A stretch of 64,000 nt of DNA from an uncultured Coriobacteriia bacterium (GTDB lineage: Bacteria; Actinomycetota; Coriobacteriia; Coriobacteriales; QAMH01), in assembly GCA_948466335.1 (NCBI GenBank), contig CAOKAE010000005.1, forward strand, positions 1-64,000, read 5' to 3'. Position numbers and translations under genes: made by a program. Numbering within the stretch: the first letter of the stretch is position 1; each line of letters begins with the position of its first letter. The notes under the pieces are model-generated. The model saw only the letters and a program-made list of their open reading frames with translations, ran no database searches and had not been told where the DNA came from. Positions 3,672 through 61,084 of the stretch are shown here, in pieces.

Positions 3672-3774
3672 ATGAGACAATTTGGTCAGACAGATTTGTC
3701 TCATTATCAATTGGTACCAGCAAAATATGAGACAGTTTGGTCAGACACGTTTGTCTCAGACACGTTTGTCTCAT
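3672..3774. repeat. Palindromic elements, copies 3 and 4 (one partly duplicated)
   Basis: Copy 3 has ATGAGACAA (3672-3680) facing TTGTCTCAT (3696-3704). Copy 4 begins at 3727 with ATGAGACA and its right arm is present twice in tandem (GACACGTTTGTCTCA, ending at 3758 and again at 3773). Both spacers share GGTCAGACA. The pair fills the space between the tsf terminator and gltX. Confidence 0.75.
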
Positions 3775-3793
3775 CGGAAGGGTTGAGGGCATT

Positions 3794-5260
3794 ATGAGTG
3801 AGGTTCGAGTTCGCTTTGCCCCGTCGCCGACGGGCAAGTTGCATATCGGTGGTGCGCGCACCGCTATCTACAACTGGGCGTTTGCGCGTGCGACGGGCGG
3901 CACCTTCGTCCTGCGCATCGAGGACACCGATCCGGAACGTTCCACGAAGGAGAACATCGACCTCATCATCCGCGCCATGAGGTGGCTCGGGTTGGACTGG
4001 GATGAGGGTCCGCACATCGGCGGAGACTATGGTCCCTACATGCAGACCGAGCGCTTTGACACCTACGCCGAGGCCCTCGAGCAGCTCAAGGCAAGCGGCA
4101 ACGTCTATCCCTGCTTCTGCACTTCCGAAGAGCTTGCGGCCCGTCGCGAGGCCGTGCAGGCCGGTGCTGCCAACGAGCCCGACCCGTGCCGATCCTTAAG
4201 CCACGAGGAGGCCCAGAAGCGCATCGACGCCGGTGAGCCCCATGTCTGGCGCCTCAAGGTCCCCGAGGACCGCGGCACTATCGTCGTGCACGACATCATC
4301 CACGGCGATGCCGAGTTCGATGCCGCCCTCATGGATGACATGATCCTCGTGCGCAGCGATGGCACGCCCACCTACAACTTCGCCGTCGTCTGCGACGACG
4401 TGAACATGAAGATGACGCACATCATTCGCGGCGACGACCATCTCTCCAACACCCCGCGTCAGGTGCTCGTCTACGAAGCGCTCGGCTATCCCACGCCGAC
4501 CTTCGCCCACCTGCCCATGATTTGCGGCCCGGATGGCAAGAAGCTCTCCAAGCGCCACGGCGCGGCAAGCGTCGAGGAGTACCGTGACATGGGCTATCTG
4601 CCCGACGCGCTGTTCAATTACCTCGCGCTGCTCGGCTGGGCGCCCGACGGCGAGACCACGCTGTTCACACGTGAGCAGATGGCCAAGCTCTTCACGCTCG
4701 AGCGCATCAGCAAGAATCCGAGCTCGCTCGATTACGACAAGCTCGAGTGGATCAACAGCCAGTACATCCAGCAGATGGGGGCGGCGGCCTTCGTCGACAC
4801 GCTTGCGCCGTATCTCATCGAGGCTGGGTATGCGGCTGACGAGACTGGCGTCGAGGCACTGCGTTCGCGCCTGGAGGCCATCTATCCGCTCGTGAACGAG
4901 CGTGTCAAGCTCATGACCGAGGCCGTTCCCATGATTGCCTACCTGCTCGATGACTCCATCGAGCTCGACGAGAAAAGCGTCGAGAAGGTGCTCCGCAAGG
5001 AGGGCAAGGGTGCGAAAACGGCGCTCGTCGAGGCCGCTGCCGTACTCGAGGATTGTCCGTGGACGGTCGAGGGCATCGAAGCGGCGCTGCGCGGCTTGTG
5101 CGAGAAGCTTGAGGCCAAGCCGAAGTTCGTCTTCCAGCCCATCCGCGTGGCCGTATGCGGCAACATGGTGAGCCCGCCGCTCTTCGAGTCCATCGAGCTT
5201 TTGGACCGTGGCGTTGTCGAGCAACGCCTCAGGGCCGCGGCCGAGCTTGCCGTCGATTAG
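3794..5260 (+). CDS. gltX: Glutamyl-tRNA synthetase
   Basis: Class I aminoacyl-tRNA synthetase charging tRNA with glutamate. The 488-aa protein carries the HIGH motif as HIGG (17-20) in the PSPTGKLHIGG context and the KMSKS loop as KLSKR (250-254), followed by an alpha-helical anticodon-binding half. The start at 3794 gives the standard N-terminus MSEVRVRFAPSPTG; longer frames run into the palindromic repeats. The 3' end overlaps the convergent ATP-grasp gene by 4 bp with no terminator between. Whether it also charges tRNA-Gln cannot be read from the sequence. Confidence 0.97.
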   Translation: MSEVRVRFAPSPTGKLHIGGARTAIYNWAFARATGGTFVLRIEDTDPERSTKENIDLIIRAMRWLGLDWDEGPHIGGDYGPYMQTERFDTYAEALEQLKASGNVYPCFCTSEELAARREAVQAGAANEPDPCRSLSHEEAQKRIDAGEPHVWRLKVPEDRGTIVVHDIIHGDAEFDAALMDDMILVRSDGTPTYNFAVVCDDVNMKMTHIIRGDDHLSNTPRQVLVYEALGYPTPTFAHLPMICGPDGKKLSKRHGAASVEEYRDMGYLPDALFNYLALLGWAPDGETTLFTREQMAKLFTLERISKNPSSLDYDKLEWINSQYIQQMGAAAFVDTLAPYLIEAGYAADETGVEALRSRLEAIYPLVNERVKLMTEAVPMIAYLLDDSIELDEKSVEKVLRKEGKGAKTALVEAAAVLEDCPWTVEGIEAALRGLCEKLEAKPKFVFQPIRVAVCGNMVSPPLFESIELLDRGVVEQRLRAAAELAVD

Positions 5261-11548: not shown

Positions 11549-12621
11549 CGCAGCCCTTCGTTCCGGAGGAATGTCTCGCCGACGATCGCTTCGATGCAGA
11601 TGCCGTGCGCTGGGCGTGTGCCTTCGCGCGCCATCTCGAAGTCGAGCGGGGACTCTCCGCCAACACGGTGCGTGCATACTGCATCGACCTGCGCAGCTAC
11701 CTTGACTGGGCCGCACGCAGCGGCCTTGACCCGCTCCAGGTGGAGTACCGGCGCTTTCGTCGCTACCTCGTCGAGCTCAACGGCGCGGGCTACACGCCCA
11801 AGACGGCTTCGCGACGTCTGTCGGCCATCCGCACCTTCTTCAAGTACCTCAACGTCCAGGGCGTAACCCAGCTCAACCCGGCGGCCGCCACCTCGTCGCC
11901 CAAGTTGGGGCGCGACCTGCCGCGTAAGACGAGCGATTCGGATATCGCCCGTCTGCTCGCCATTTGCGAAGACGATGCCATCGGTCTGCGCGACCAGGCA
12001 TTTCTCGAACTGCTCTACGCAAGCGGCGCCCGTATTGCCGAGCTTGCCCGCCTCGAGCTTGCCGATGTCGACTTCCCTGACGCGAGCATCCGCCTCTTTG
12101 GCAAGGGCTCCAAGGAGCGCATCGTGCCCCTGTACGACGTTGCCCTCGATGCCGTGGACCGCTATCTGCGGCAAGGTCGTCCGGATCTTCTGGGCGATGC
12201 CCGCAGTGACGCGCTCTTCATCTCGACGCGCGGCAACGCGATGTCGGCCGATAGCCTGCGTCGCGTCTTCAAGCAGCGCGCCACCCAAGCCGGTCTTGAC
12301 CCGAGCCTTCACCCGCACGACATGCGCCATGCCTTCGCCACCGACCTTGTCGAGGGAGGGGCGGATCTGCGCAGCGTCCAGGAGATGCTCGGCCATGCGA
12401 GCCTTTCGACGACCCAGGTCTACACGCATCTCTCGCTGCAGCACATGAAGGACGTCTACAAGGACGCCCATCCGCGGTCTTGTTGTGTCTGGGGGTCAGG
12501 CACCGTGGCTCCTTCTCGATGTGCCACGGTGCCTGACCCCCTGACACATCATTTCCCCGGTCAGCAAATTTCTCATTCCCGTTCCCGCGAGTTGTGCTAT
12601 AGTTCTGAATTCGCGTGGTGA
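11545..12621 (+). CDS. xerC: XerC/XerD-type tyrosine recombinase with repeat-derived C-terminal extension
   Basis: Site-specific recombinase for chromosome dimer resolution. The N-terminal SAM-like core-binding domain covers about 1-110. The catalytic domain carries R163, H258, R261, H284 and nucleophile Y293. Family members normally end a few residues after the DxAHPR sequence. Here that point is R311, but no stop follows: the frame runs through a palindromic element (12484-12548) and on toward the rpmB promoter, adding 47 unrelated residues (312-358). All catalytic residues are intact, so the enzyme may still work. XerC versus XerD cannot be decided. Confidence 0.93.
   Translation: MTQPFVPEECLADDRFDADAVRWACAFARHLEVERGLSANTVRAYCIDLRSYLDWAARSGLDPLQVEYRRFRRYLVELNGAGYTPKTASRRLSAIRTFFKYLNVQGVTQLNPAAATSSPKLGRDLPRKTSDSDIARLLAICEDDAIGLRDQAFLELLYASGARIAELARLELADVDFPDASIRLFGKGSKERIVPLYDVALDAVDRYLRQGRPDLLGDARSDALFISTRGNAMSADSLRRVFKQRATQAGLDPSLHPHDMRHAFATDLVEGGADLRSVQEMLGHASLSTTQVYTHLSLQHMKDVYKDAHPRSCCVWGSGTVAPSRCATVPDPLTHHFPGQQISHSRSRELCYSSEFAW
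12484..12548. repeat. Palindromic element, copy 5, within the xerC 3' end
   Basis: Arms of 26 bp (12484-12509 and 12523-12548) are complementary at 25 of 26 positions and enclose a 13-nt spacer. The core GGTCAGGCACCGTGG differs from the TGAGACAA type, but the spacer length is the same. It encodes the start of the abnormal xerC extension. Confidence 0.85.
12576..12603 (+). promoter_or_regulatory. Putative promoter of rpmB
   Basis: TATAGT (12598-12603) with TTCCCG 16 bp upstream (12576-12581). It overlaps the extended xerC frame, as expected if that extension is a recent accident over intergenic DNA. Confidence 0.5.
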
Positions 12622-26558: not shown

Positions 26559-26570
26559 AGCTATATGCCC

Positions 26571-26680
26571 GGGAGCGTTGGATAGCCGCCTCGCCTCGAT
26601 GGTCGCTTCCCGACGGTCCGTTTCGCGGCCCTTACGGCGCGCTCCCTTAAACCTCGGCTCGACGGCTATCCAACGCTCCC
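26571..26680. repeat. 110-bp inverted-repeat element
   Basis: Perfect 18-bp terminal inverted repeats (GGGAGCGTTGGATAGCCG, 26571-26588, and its complement, 26663-26680) enclose 74 bp of GC-rich sequence without an ORF. It lies 12 bp after the ppsR stop and 54 bp before the ppsA promoter. It could terminate ppsR, but the long loop looks more like a non-autonomous mobile or structural element. Confidence 0.7.
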
Positions 26681-26733
26681 TGTCACATTTTTGGCTCTTG
26701 CCCCTCACGCGCTTGCCGTGTCACAAAGCCGAC

Positions 26734-44182: not shown

Positions 44183-45808
44183 ATGCTTGACGAGCTCCAC
44201 GTATCAAACATCGCCCTCATCGAAGACGCCACGATTGCCTTCGCACCTGGCCTCACCGTGCTCACGGGCGAGACGGGCGCGGGAAAGACGGCGCTTCTGG
44301 CCGCCCTCAGGCTCATATGCGGTGCCCGTGCGGACAATTCGGTCGTGCGAGACGGGGCCGACGAGGCACTTGCCGAGGCATGCCTCGTAGACGATGACGA
44401 ACACGTCGTGCGCAGGCGCTTGAGCGCGAGCGGGCGTAGCCGCTGCACGGTTGACGGCGCCATGGCGACGGTGGGCGAGCTCGCCGCAATCACCTCCTCC
44501 ATCGAGGTGCACGGTCAGCACGAGCAGGTGCTCTTGCTCGAGCCGGCCCGGCAGCTCGCCTATCTCGATGCCTGGGCGGACGATGACGAACTTCGCGCGC
44601 GTTACGCTGACGCGCGCCTTGCCTACCAGGAGGCGCGAGCCGCCCTCGACGAGCTCGAGCAAGCGCGGGGCAAGGACCAACAGGAGCTCGAGTTCATGGG
44701 CTTTACCTGCGAGCAGATCGAGAAGGTCAACCCGCAACCGGGCGAGCTCGAGGAACTCGAGGAGGAGCTGCCGCGGCTGCAACACGCCGACCAACTGGCA
44801 CAGGCCCTGCAGGGTGCCCGTGCCGCCCTGCACGACGATGGGGGAGCACTCGACCTCATCGCCCAGGCGGCTTCCGACCTCATGCACCAGCAGGGCATCG
44901 ACGACGAGCTCGACGAACTCGCCGCCAGGCTCGACGGACAGATGCGCGACCTCGAGGACCTCACGCGTGACCTGAGCGCCTACGCGCAGTCCATCGATAC
45001 CGACCCGGCACGGCTCGAGGACACGCTCGAACGCCTCGACAAGCTCAACGGCCTCATGAAACGCTTCGGTCCCGGCATGGAGCAGGTCTTTGCGACCTGG
45101 CAAGCCGCCAAGCGCGCCATCGAGTCCGCCCAGGACTCCCCGCAGCGCATGGAAGAGGCCCGTGCCCGCGTCGCGCGGGCGCAAGATGCCTACCGCCAAG
45201 CCGCCGCCGCGCTCTGTGCCGCGCGTCACGATGCCGCCCGTACCTTCTGCGAGCAGCTCGGGCAAGCCGTTGCCGAGCTCGCGATGGAAGGTGCGCGCTT
45301 CGAGTTCTCGTTTGCCGAGCTCGCGTTCGAGCGTTGGGGAGAATCCGGTTCCGAACAGGTCGAGCTGCTGTACCAGCCTGCCCCCACGGCCAAGGCGCGT
45401 CCCTTGCGCCGCATCGCGAGCGGAGGCGAGCTCTCGCGCATCCTGCTCGTCCTCGAGTGCATCCACTACGATTCGTGCGAATCCGACGCCTCGCGTTCCA
45501 CGATCGTCTTCGACGAGGTCGACTCCGGTATCGGAGGCGTCACGGGCAATGCCGTGGCAAAGCGTCTCGCCGCGCTCTCGAAGGGGGCCCAGGTCATCGT
45601 CGTCACCCACCTGGCCCAGGTCGCAGCCCTCGCCGACGAGCACTACGTGGTGAGAAAGCAGGGCGTTGCCGATGCCTTGCCTCATACGAGCGTTGCGCCC
45701 GTCACGGGCGAGGCGCGTGTGGCGGAAATCGCCCGCATGCTCTCGGGCGACGATGACGAGCGTGCCCTCGACCATGCCCGCGCCCTACTCGAGGGAGCGC
45801 GTCCATGA
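44183..45808 (+). CDS. recN: DNA repair protein RecN
   Basis: SMC-like ATPase acting in double-strand break repair. The 541-aa protein has an N-terminal Walker A (GETGAGKTALLAAL), a long coiled-coil middle (about 150-350, Glu/Leu/Arg-rich), and the C-terminal signature RRIASGGELSRILLVLE with Walker B TIVFDEVDSGIGG. The ATG at 44183, 6 nt after GAGGGGA, was preferred to the GTG at 44168. Confidence 0.95.
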   Translation: MLDELHVSNIALIEDATIAFAPGLTVLTGETGAGKTALLAALRLICGARADNSVVRDGADEALAEACLVDDDEHVVRRRLSASGRSRCTVDGAMATVGELAAITSSIEVHGQHEQVLLLEPARQLAYLDAWADDDELRARYADARLAYQEARAALDELEQARGKDQQELEFMGFTCEQIEKVNPQPGELEELEEELPRLQHADQLAQALQGARAALHDDGGALDLIAQAASDLMHQQGIDDELDELAARLDGQMRDLEDLTRDLSAYAQSIDTDPARLEDTLERLDKLNGLMKRFGPGMEQVFATWQAAKRAIESAQDSPQRMEEARARVARAQDAYRQAAAALCAARHDAARTFCEQLGQAVAELAMEGARFEFSFAELAFERWGESGSEQVELLYQPAPTAKARPLRRIASGGELSRILLVLECIHYDSCESDASRSTIVFDEVDSGIGGVTGNAVAKRLAALSKGAQVIVVTHLAQVAALADEHYVVRKQGVADALPHTSVAPVTGEARVAEIARMLSGDDDERALDHARALLEGARP

Positions 45809-46419
45809 TGGCCCCGCTCGTGGCGACGCTGCGCGACGGGCAGGCCGTGATTGTCGCGACTGACACCGTCTATGGCCTTGCCGCACGTCCCGGTTCTGCG
45901 GGCTACGCCCATATCTTCGAACTCAAGAATCGCCCCATGGGCCAGGTGCTGCCCTGGCTCGTCTCGGGTGCAGACGCCCTTGATGCGCTTGCCATCGACG
46001 TGCCCGCCTACGCATATCGCCTGGCGCAAATGTTTTGGCCCGGTGCCCTCACCCTCGTGCTGCGCGCCTCCGATGCCGCATGCGAGCTGGGTGGCGTCGC
46101 CGTCGACAAGACCATCGCGCTGCGCTGTCCCGATGACGCCGACCTGCTCGCCCTGCTCGGCGAGCTCGAGGGCCCACTTGCCTGCACGAGCGCCAACATC
46201 CACGGGCAAACCGCGGTGTCATCCAAAGACGAGCTGCACGAATCCTTGGCGGTGCTTCCGGGTGCCGATGAGCTTCCGGCATACTGCCAAGGCGGCCAGG
46301 CATCCACGATCGTCGATTGCACGGGCACTTATCCGAAGATCCTGCGTGAAGGGCCGATACCCGAGCAAGTCATCCTCGATGTGGCCATGTTCGGTGCTAC
46401 ACTTACGAGCCACGAGTAA
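45805..46419 (+). CDS. tsaC: Sua5/YciO/YrdC family threonylcarbamoyl-AMP synthase
   Basis: Makes threonylcarbamoyl-adenylate for t6A37 in tRNA. The 204-aa YrdC-fold protein has VIVATDTVYGLAARPG, ELKNRPMGQVLPWLVS, FWPGALTLVLRA and ACTSANIHG. It lacks the extra Sua5 domain. It overlaps recN by 4 bp and ends the long operon. MtaB at 56062 would further modify the same t6A residue. Confidence 0.9.
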   Translation: MMAPLVATLRDGQAVIVATDTVYGLAARPGSAGYAHIFELKNRPMGQVLPWLVSGADALDALAIDVPAYAYRLAQMFWPGALTLVLRASDAACELGGVAVDKTIALRCPDDADLLALLGELEGPLACTSANIHGQTAVSSKDELHESLAVLPGADELPAYCQGGQASTIVDCTGTYPKILREGPIPEQVILDVAMFGATLTSHE

Positions 46420-46434
46420 TATGGCATCACCAGT

Positions 46435-46599
46435 AGATACGCGCCACATTTTCGAGCATCTGGAGCAGATGAGCGATTGTCGCGAAGCGGTTTTGCGAGG
46501 ACTGTCTAAGCGCGCTGTTCTTGCGCGCGAGTTCCGCAGCGGCTTCGCGACAATCGCTCATCGGGTGCGAGAGCAAGCTCGAAAATGCGGCGCGTATCT
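46435..46599. repeat. 165-bp long hairpin element
   Basis: Arms of about 54 and 58 bp (46435-46488 and 46542-46599) form a long, nearly continuous inverted repeat. The ends are AGATACGCGCC(A/G)CATTTTCGAGC, with an inner perfect 21-bp block (46468-46488 and 46542-46562). The 53-nt centre contains a further GCGCGC hairpin. It occupies most of the 211-bp gap between tsaC and rpiB and has no ORF of its own. It resembles a non-autonomous transposable element or a structured RNA. Confidence 0.8.
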
Positions 46600-46630
46600 T
46601 AACTAGATTTGCGCACGACAAGGGGGCACA

Positions 46631-47083
46631 ATGGCGCAGATACGCATCGCGTTGGCATCAGACCACGGTGGCTTTGGCCAGAAGGACGATTTGAAGCTCT
46701 GGCTCGAGAGCCAAGGCTTCGCGGTTGACGACTTTGGCTGCGATGATGACAGCAGCGTCGACTATCCCGATTACGCCAAGCTCGCCGCCCGTGCCGTCGC
46801 ACAAGGTGATGACGACTATGGCGTGCTCATCTGCGGCACCGGCATCGGCATGATGATCGCCGCCAACAAGGTGCGCGGCATTCGCGCCGCTAACCTCACG
46901 TCCCCCGAATTCGCCAGGCTTTCGCGCGAACACAACAACGCCAACGTCGCGACGCTTTCGGGGCGCTTCACGTCCCTCGAGGACAACAAGAAGATCCTCG
47001 AGACCTTCCTCGGTACCGAGTTCTCGGGCGACAGGCACACCCGTCGCGTCGAGAAGATCATGTCCATCGAAAACGAAGAGTAG
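46631..47083 (+). CDS. rpiB: Ribose-5-phosphate isomerase B
   Basis: Interconverts ribose- and ribulose-5-phosphate. The 150-aa RpiB/LacAB-fold protein has IALASDHGGFGQKDDL, DYPDYAKLAARAV and CGTGIGMMIAANKVRGIRAA with the catalytic Cys, then REHNNANVATLSGRF. It is followed by glyA after 12 bp, an arrangement common in actinobacteria and Firmicutes. Confidence 0.95.
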   Translation: MAQIRIALASDHGGFGQKDDLKLWLESQGFAVDDFGCDDDSSVDYPDYAKLAARAVAQGDDDYGVLICGTGIGMMIAANKVRGIRAANLTSPEFARLSREHNNANVATLSGRFTSLEDNKKILETFLGTEFSGDRHTRRVEKIMSIENEE

Positions 47084-60985: not shown

Positions 60986-61084
60986 TTGCTGAAAAAAGAC
61001 TGGCTAAGCGGCGTAGGTGCTGGTATCATATTCCGGACTGTTTCAAGCCTTGGTCGGAAACTAAGGCATAAAGAAGGAGCAACA

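Follow-up and report, generated by a model that had tools for sequence, protein, structure and literature searches.

The intergenic region between tsaC (45805-46419, plus strand) and rpiB (46631-47083, plus strand) of this Coriobacteriia genome contains a long palindrome, and the question raised by the locus is whether this is a mobile element, as a preliminary description had suggested, or a structured RNA. The gene names are taken from that description, and the gene order is the same in relatives. Positions are those of the window, the whole stretch of 64,000 nucleotides that was analysed, unless a locus is named.

Architecture of the hairpin

The palindromic element occupies positions 46435-46599, 15 bp downstream of the tsaC stop and 31 bp upstream of the rpiB start, and was delimited by folding, arm pairing and a covariance model match (46437-46597, 162.4 bits); its core reads on the plus strand, to which all parts are referred here. 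RNA folding of 46425-46610 gave -109.8 kcal/mol compared to -65.1 +/- 4.3 in a set of 200 dinucleotide-shuffled sequences, none of which folded as well (z = -10.4). The long near-perfect hairpin of the preliminary description, with its arms and ends, is therefore real, as is the separate GC hairpin within its 53-nt centre.

From the outside inwards, the element consists of an outer helix (P1; 46435-46457 and 46577-46599) identified by arm pairing, whose 23-nt arms are 96% complementary and whose sequence differs at other loci; a conserved block, with ATCT.GAGCA at 46458-46467 (mostly invariant in the ten copies of model A1, below) and GGGTGCGAGAGCAA at 46563-46576 (seen in the A1 copies and in folds), the latter containing an unpaired GGG; a middle helix (P2; 46468-46488 and 46542-46562) of ~20 bp and variable sequence, whose 21-nt arms are 100% complementary; and a widespread core made up of GCGAGGACTGTCTAAG (46495-46510; one base off the consensus ...TGAG) and CGAGTTCCGCAGC (46528-46540), which encloses an apical stem-loop (GCGCGC...GCGCGC; 46510-46528) that covaries between taxa. 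The GGG bulge was visible by eye in folds of copies from several other genera. Judged by its sequence pattern alone, the core resembles a tandem G-A (kink-turn-like) internal loop.

The claim that the hairpin holds no ORF was only loosely true, as a 251-aa frame with a TTG start (45851-46606, plus strand, not the tsaC frame) and a 64-aa frame on the minus strand cross it, neither of which looks gene-like. The sequence GNTGCTACACT, located near the end of tsaC (46393-46403) and recurring in G001, G002 and G005, may be an rpiB promoter element, which would place the hairpin in the rpiB 5' leader; a promoter scan detected nothing for this region. An L31-Coriobacteria ribosomal protein leader (Rfam RF03128) lies elsewhere in the window (61047-61079) and points to membership of the genome in the Coriobacteriia.

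Dispersed copies with common blocks and locus-specific arms

A BLAST search within the same genome returned 18 matches, two of which were the element itself on either strand. A covariance model (A1) built from ten copies gave 26 matches in this genome at E<=10, with 22 distinct full-length places at E<=2e-6, and 24 copies in the sister species G001; the search for further copies that had been proposed for the genome thus found 22 strong places. Sixteen other copies were folded and all formed long hairpins. The features common to the copies are short inner blocks, not ends, foremost the tip core GAGGACTGTYTGAG-stem-CGAGTTCCGCAG, present either as TTGCGAGGACTGTYTGAG / CGAGTTCCGCAGC or in a sister form (TTAGCGAAAGGTGTYTGAG / GTTCTTTCGCGGC), together with the inner blocks ATCTCGAGCAGA / TCGGGTGCGAGAGC, for which a minority of copies have a different junction.

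Between these blocks the arm sequence varies by locus, yet is almost perfectly Watson-Crick complementary. In A1, 36 of 60 pairs had changed on both sides (20 of 21 in the P1 helix), 93.1% of cells were paired and 127 cells carried changes on both sides, compared to 40 +/- 5 in shuffles (none of 500 reached 127) and at most 31 in a control in which partners were slid by 1-3 columns. P1 is mostly 18-28 bp long in this genus, while P2, judged by eye, is near 20 bp in several genera; in another family (G008; four copies examined of six model matches) the arms measured 52, 68, 69 and 105 bp, and none had more than one mismatch. One G008 locus (L049, 1414-1741) is a palindrome of ~328 bp which adjoins a gene end and has arms perfect over at least 105 bp. 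The conserved unpaired blocks and the near-constant length of P2 speak for recognition, in some manner, of the folded strand, either as RNA or as single-stranded DNA.

Concerted change was counted in nine orthologous hairpin pairs (G000 vs G001; those more than 78% alike among 15, six being omitted as too different). Both partners had changed and were still Watson-Crick at 16 of 710 base pairs (four by transversion), compared to about 1-2 expected under independent change by a hand estimate; a further four pairs showed two-sided changes of other kinds and 67 had changed on one side. This excess fits the copying of one arm from the other. Isolated arm mismatches in 66 hairpins, a set that contains orthologs and is not independent, comprised 33 G-U, 21 A-C and 28 of other kinds, compared to 3,276 Watson-Crick pairs. 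G-U is not in clear excess over A-C, so that the wobble tolerance expected under selection on RNA pairing is not clearly evident, and the mismatch pattern also fits arm-from-arm copying.

The hairpin probably represents one copy of a palindromic mobile element, dispersed and non-autonomous, in which template switching both generates the arms and maintains their complementarity. The mobile constant would be the short tip core (in this genus together with the second, internal-loop block), the presumed target of a mobilising machinery. As the element settles, the hairpin would cause the strand being replicated to turn back on itself and use its own flank as template, giving rise to the arms, and a later arm mutation would be re-matched by the same fold-back copying. 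The arms would then be DNA private to each site, one an inverted copy of the other, and not terminal repeats. Template switching in replication is a proposed source of hairpins and of their maintenance (PMC8794818), and the perfect stems and concerted changes that it explains in the available text of that paper resemble those described here, as do the long palindromes tolerated in genes of Nematomorpha mitochondria (PMC6649704, available text). Those cases are either mitochondrial or confined to local changes within RNA genes, whereas here the palindromes are tied to a conserved dispersed core.

Other dispersed hairpins were also encountered. A second family (core CGGTCGCTTCCCGACGGCCCGCTTCGCGGTCCTTACGGCGCGCTCCCTTAACCTCGGCTCGACG; window 26563-26688, also L126-L145, L119 and L030) is of similar design, with locus-specific palindromic arms and dozens of matches in the two genomes, and a third, smaller type (TGTGnCAnGGGGTCAGACCCCnTGnCACA-like; window 12472-12560, and about 1440-1475 of L040) occupies the same kind of sites.

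Gain, loss and distribution of copies

The flanks of the copies in G001 are 80-98% identical to those of this genome, and 15 of its 24 copies occupy orthologous sites. Likeness between the hairpins exceeds 78% at nine of the 15 shared sites and is lower at six despite similar flanks; the core is reversed at three of these six (L025/L086, L029/L075, L033/L072) and has the same direction at the 12 remaining sites. Three orthologous pairs (L023/L084, L041/L090, L044/L088) differ by the presence or absence, at the same position, of one common apical block of 26-27 nt (TCCCTAAAGGGACTAGCTTCGCGTCGC), also noted at L039 and L040, as if it were exchanged between copies.

At ten sites the core was present in one species only (L031, L038, L039 and L045 in this genome; L048, L074, L077, L080, L081 and L091 in G001), and seven further private copies (L024, L030, L036, L043, L055, L085, L087) stand outside that list. 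At L074 and L077 the other species keeps an apparent arm remnant and the change there is probably a deletion, so that loss as well as gain appears to be at work. This genome holds a hairpin of the second family in place of L081, and G001 holds unrelated sequence in place of L045; some core-less alleles carry small terminator-like hairpins instead. No clean insertion with target-site duplication was seen; most core-less alleles also diverge from their core-bearing counterparts over tens of bases around the junction. Between tsaC and rpiB the hairpin is kept in G001, with four double Watson-Crick changes in its stem, while the more distant relatives G002, G004 and G005 have both genes and no hairpin. 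Sites lacking the core, the preliminary description having asked for empty ones, were thus found both here and at the ten sites, and conservation at the same place in distant relatives, which it had named as pointing to a regulatory RNA, was not seen in any of the three compared.

The exact pattern GAGGACTGTYTGAGN{10,40}CGAGTTCCGCAG, which misses core variants, was found in at least 120 stretches of a species-genome collection. By record titles, and among the matches listed, these belonged to at least 11 phyla (Pseudomonadota, Actinomycetota, Bacillota, Bacteroidota, Myxococcota, Patescibacteria, Omnitrophota, Nitrospirota, Desulfobacterota, Spirochaetota and Melainabacteria), many of the records being metagenome bins and possibly contaminated. 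Twenty chosen genomes had 2-52 exact cores each, while a reversed-pattern control gave 0 in all 20. Within the Coriobacteriia the exact core has a scattered distribution (17 of 396 genomes, 10 of 153 genera). One viral contig record had a match, and a plasmid search gave no match to the window hairpin or to a Dechloromonas double element. No Rfam family matched at the window hairpin (gathering score) or at the cores of 12 core-bearing loci (E<=1). A literature search by core strings and keywords, with figures and supplements outside its reach, found no description of the core in the text available, and the string matches were unrelated by title.

Conservation beside the widespread core drops within a few bases (left C 98%, G 82%, then at most 61%; right at most 76%). 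Among 126 of 135 unique copies (nine without enough flank were left out), 45 had arms scoring at least 14 near the core and 81 scored below, compared to 0 in five trials of a swapped-partner control. Many of the short-armed copies are Betaproteobacterial, with only 6-11 bp beside the core, and some are double elements; in Rhodocyclaceae (L182 at 3680-4100, L151 and L179) two inverted cores lie in a super-hairpin of ~400 bp with AAAGTAGCCAAA-like ends, an arrangement resembling ordinary MITEs assembled around the core. In the apical stem, Watson-Crick pairs made up 389 of 533 cells (112 distinct inserts), compared to about 185 expected.

Placement was assessed for 136 cores using genes from a simple ORF caller, 37 being dropped (31 without a gene on one side and six in gaps >900 bp). 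Of the 99 classified cores, 52 lay in tandem, 34 in convergent and 13 in divergent gaps, compared to 101, 39 and 57 of 197 control gaps from those loci. Where the flanking genes were in tandem, the core ran along their direction in 19 cases and against it in 33, giving no sense bias. The corresponding tandem/convergent/divergent counts for model copies were 8/9/4 in G000 (of 21, too small a number for a verdict), 15/6/1 in G001 and 7/6/2 in five other genomes, with same-to-opposite orientations of 4:4, 8:7 and 4:3, respectively. Copies are commoner in intergenic DNA at gene ends, where they do least harm, than in that on the promoter side, and the proposed explanation requires no host function.

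Copies also occur in frame inside genes. A scan of 202 element regions (66 model and 136 pattern copies) identified 15 long frames crossing the repeat, four of which were judged to be coding on the basis of third-position G+C plus known domains or homologs. L040 and its ortholog L073 (G000 and G001) have the hairpin in frame inside a membrane-protein gene, P0001, whose homolog in G002 is without the insert (...KLVKDASRRKDNALALVCFLAG... vs ...RIVRH[insert]RLRDCIPLLCFLFG...). The right arm encodes the residues leading into a conserved membrane segment, so that at least 12 outer bp look native; the left arm is its inverted copy, and one I-to-V codon difference in the right arm is mirrored in the left. 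In an Eggerthellaceae bin (L195, 6028-7773, minus strand), murD carries one in-frame palindromic insert of ~87 aa in a variable loop, at a position where 12 relatives have 3-5 residues, and neither arm looks native. In G052 (L065, 3-3086, minus strand), mfd is interrupted in frame by the hairpin, which lies between its UvrB-interaction and RID domains, as judged by frame and domains only. The element may also be able to enter essential and repair genes while leaving them functional. An arm made from native flank is supported in P0001, suggested at L039/L114 and not supported in murD, and one arm is likely to be native flank at some sites only.

Candidate drivers and rival explanations

Of the explanations in which the element is moved by a known kind of enzyme, that of a REP element mobilised by a RAYT (Y1) transposase now acting in trans is quite improbable. 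Gene-end placement is like that of REPs (PMC3733652), and Y1 genes were present in 10 of 12 core-bearing genomes searched. However, the available text of PMC2817692 reports RAYT genes as always flanked by their REPs, and the core was absent from the flanks of all 37 Y1_Tnp loci examined (a subset of the Y1 matches in 20 genomes; two mismatches per half allowed; flanks of ~1.5-2 kb, shorter at contig ends; 32 loci from genomes with a core or model match). Five core-bearing genomes (G002, G004, G052, G061 and G071) gave no Y1 match. The GTAG tag was found within 14 nt of 136 cores five times to the left and six to the right (about 5.8 expected per side), and the CGTC tag three and six times, which is not above chance. 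A RAYT was accordingly rejected as driver. Reverse transcriptase was likewise set aside, as RVT_1 was found in 13 of 30 genomes and gave no match in G000, G001, G002, G071 or G075, and so was a shared neighbour gene: among protein clusters over 121 core loci, one of 46 loci overlaps the repeat itself and the next span 7, 6, 6 and 4 loci.

The miniature inverted-repeat element proposed in the preliminary description was right as to the mobile kind and not as to the classic form. A classical MITE, with terminal inverted repeats and moved in trans by a DDE-type transposase, would fit the size, palindromy, intergenic sites and copy number, and MITEs, according to the available text of PMC10969869, are short, non-coding, palindromic and numerous, with no transposase of their own. 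Nevertheless, the outer arms differ between the loci compared (some share a few inner bases), so that no constant terminal repeat was seen to which a transposase might bind, and no target duplication was observed; this reading was abandoned once P1 proved to be locus-specific, and is now very improbable. That the copies are ordinary transcription terminators, alike by chance, is scarcely credible. Copies do tend to lie downstream of genes, and the terminator-like hairpins of some core-less alleles would agree with it, but no terminator-like site (a G+C stem then a T-run) was found at the window copy, the one scanned (46300-46700), and a 26-base core that is exact across phyla and gave none in the reversed control refutes chance likeness.

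The main rival is a structured non-coding RNA, either as its own transcript or as part of an mRNA, with conserved internal loops and stems held paired by selection, which we regard as rather unlikely. The conserved unpaired blocks between covarying stems, the middle stem near 20 bp in several genera and the covariation of the apical stem are as expected of such an RNA, and in that respect count against the mobile element. On the other hand, the cores had no Rfam match, and a host RNA gene would not usually show such patchy occurrence, so many copies, their gain or loss between species, or their presence within murD and mfd. The lack of sense bias, together with the lack of a clear G-U excess, means that an mRNA-borne role, such as that of the putative double-stranded RNase III substrate in the preliminary description, is not favoured. 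Against the mobile element stand also the failure to find a driver or a clean insertion with target duplication, the 81 widespread copies below the arm score and the murD arms.

Among known systems, the mobile element proposed here is placed near REPs and Rickettsia palindromic elements (RPEs), and apparently forms a separate superfamily. Like REPs of the GTAG and CGTC super-families, as described in the available text of PMC3733652, it is palindromic and dispersed, occurs in several phyla, lies mostly in tandem and convergent gaps and less often in divergent ones, and is sometimes found inside genes, repair genes included. REPs are, however, 20-40 bp in length, carry a GTAG or CGTC tag and have stems mostly of 6-9 bp, whereas this element fails the tags and has a 26-base core with locus-specific arms (~20 bp in this genus, up to ~100 bp elsewhere). 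The arrangement of GTAG REPs with RAYTs, a transposase gene between two inverted copies, was not found here, nor was the CGTC form (an unpaired CGTC end, a stem of 8-9 bp and a loop of 4-5 nt), the arms being longer in many copies. RPEs, compared by description only, are ~150 bp long, palindromic and in frame in unrelated genes (PMC10969869), as are the copies in murD, P0001 and, by frame and domains, mfd; they are described from Rickettsia, the core here from many phyla, and the available text of that paper does not mention site-specific perfect arms.

It may tentatively be proposed, at somewhat less than even confidence, that these repeats form a further superfamily of dispersed bacterial palindromes, neither GTAG nor CGTC, in at least 11 phyla, of which the core alone is mobile and writes private arms from host flank. 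If right, this would be a very widespread class of palindromic repeat that is as yet unlisted, and, with dozens of hairpins per genome, a natural and replicated record of template switching. Perfect covariation, usually the best proof of a functional RNA, could then arise without selection on RNA. The core would also serve as a probe for the enzyme that spreads it, a question shared by the CGTC REPs, which have no known transposase according to the available text of PMC3733652.
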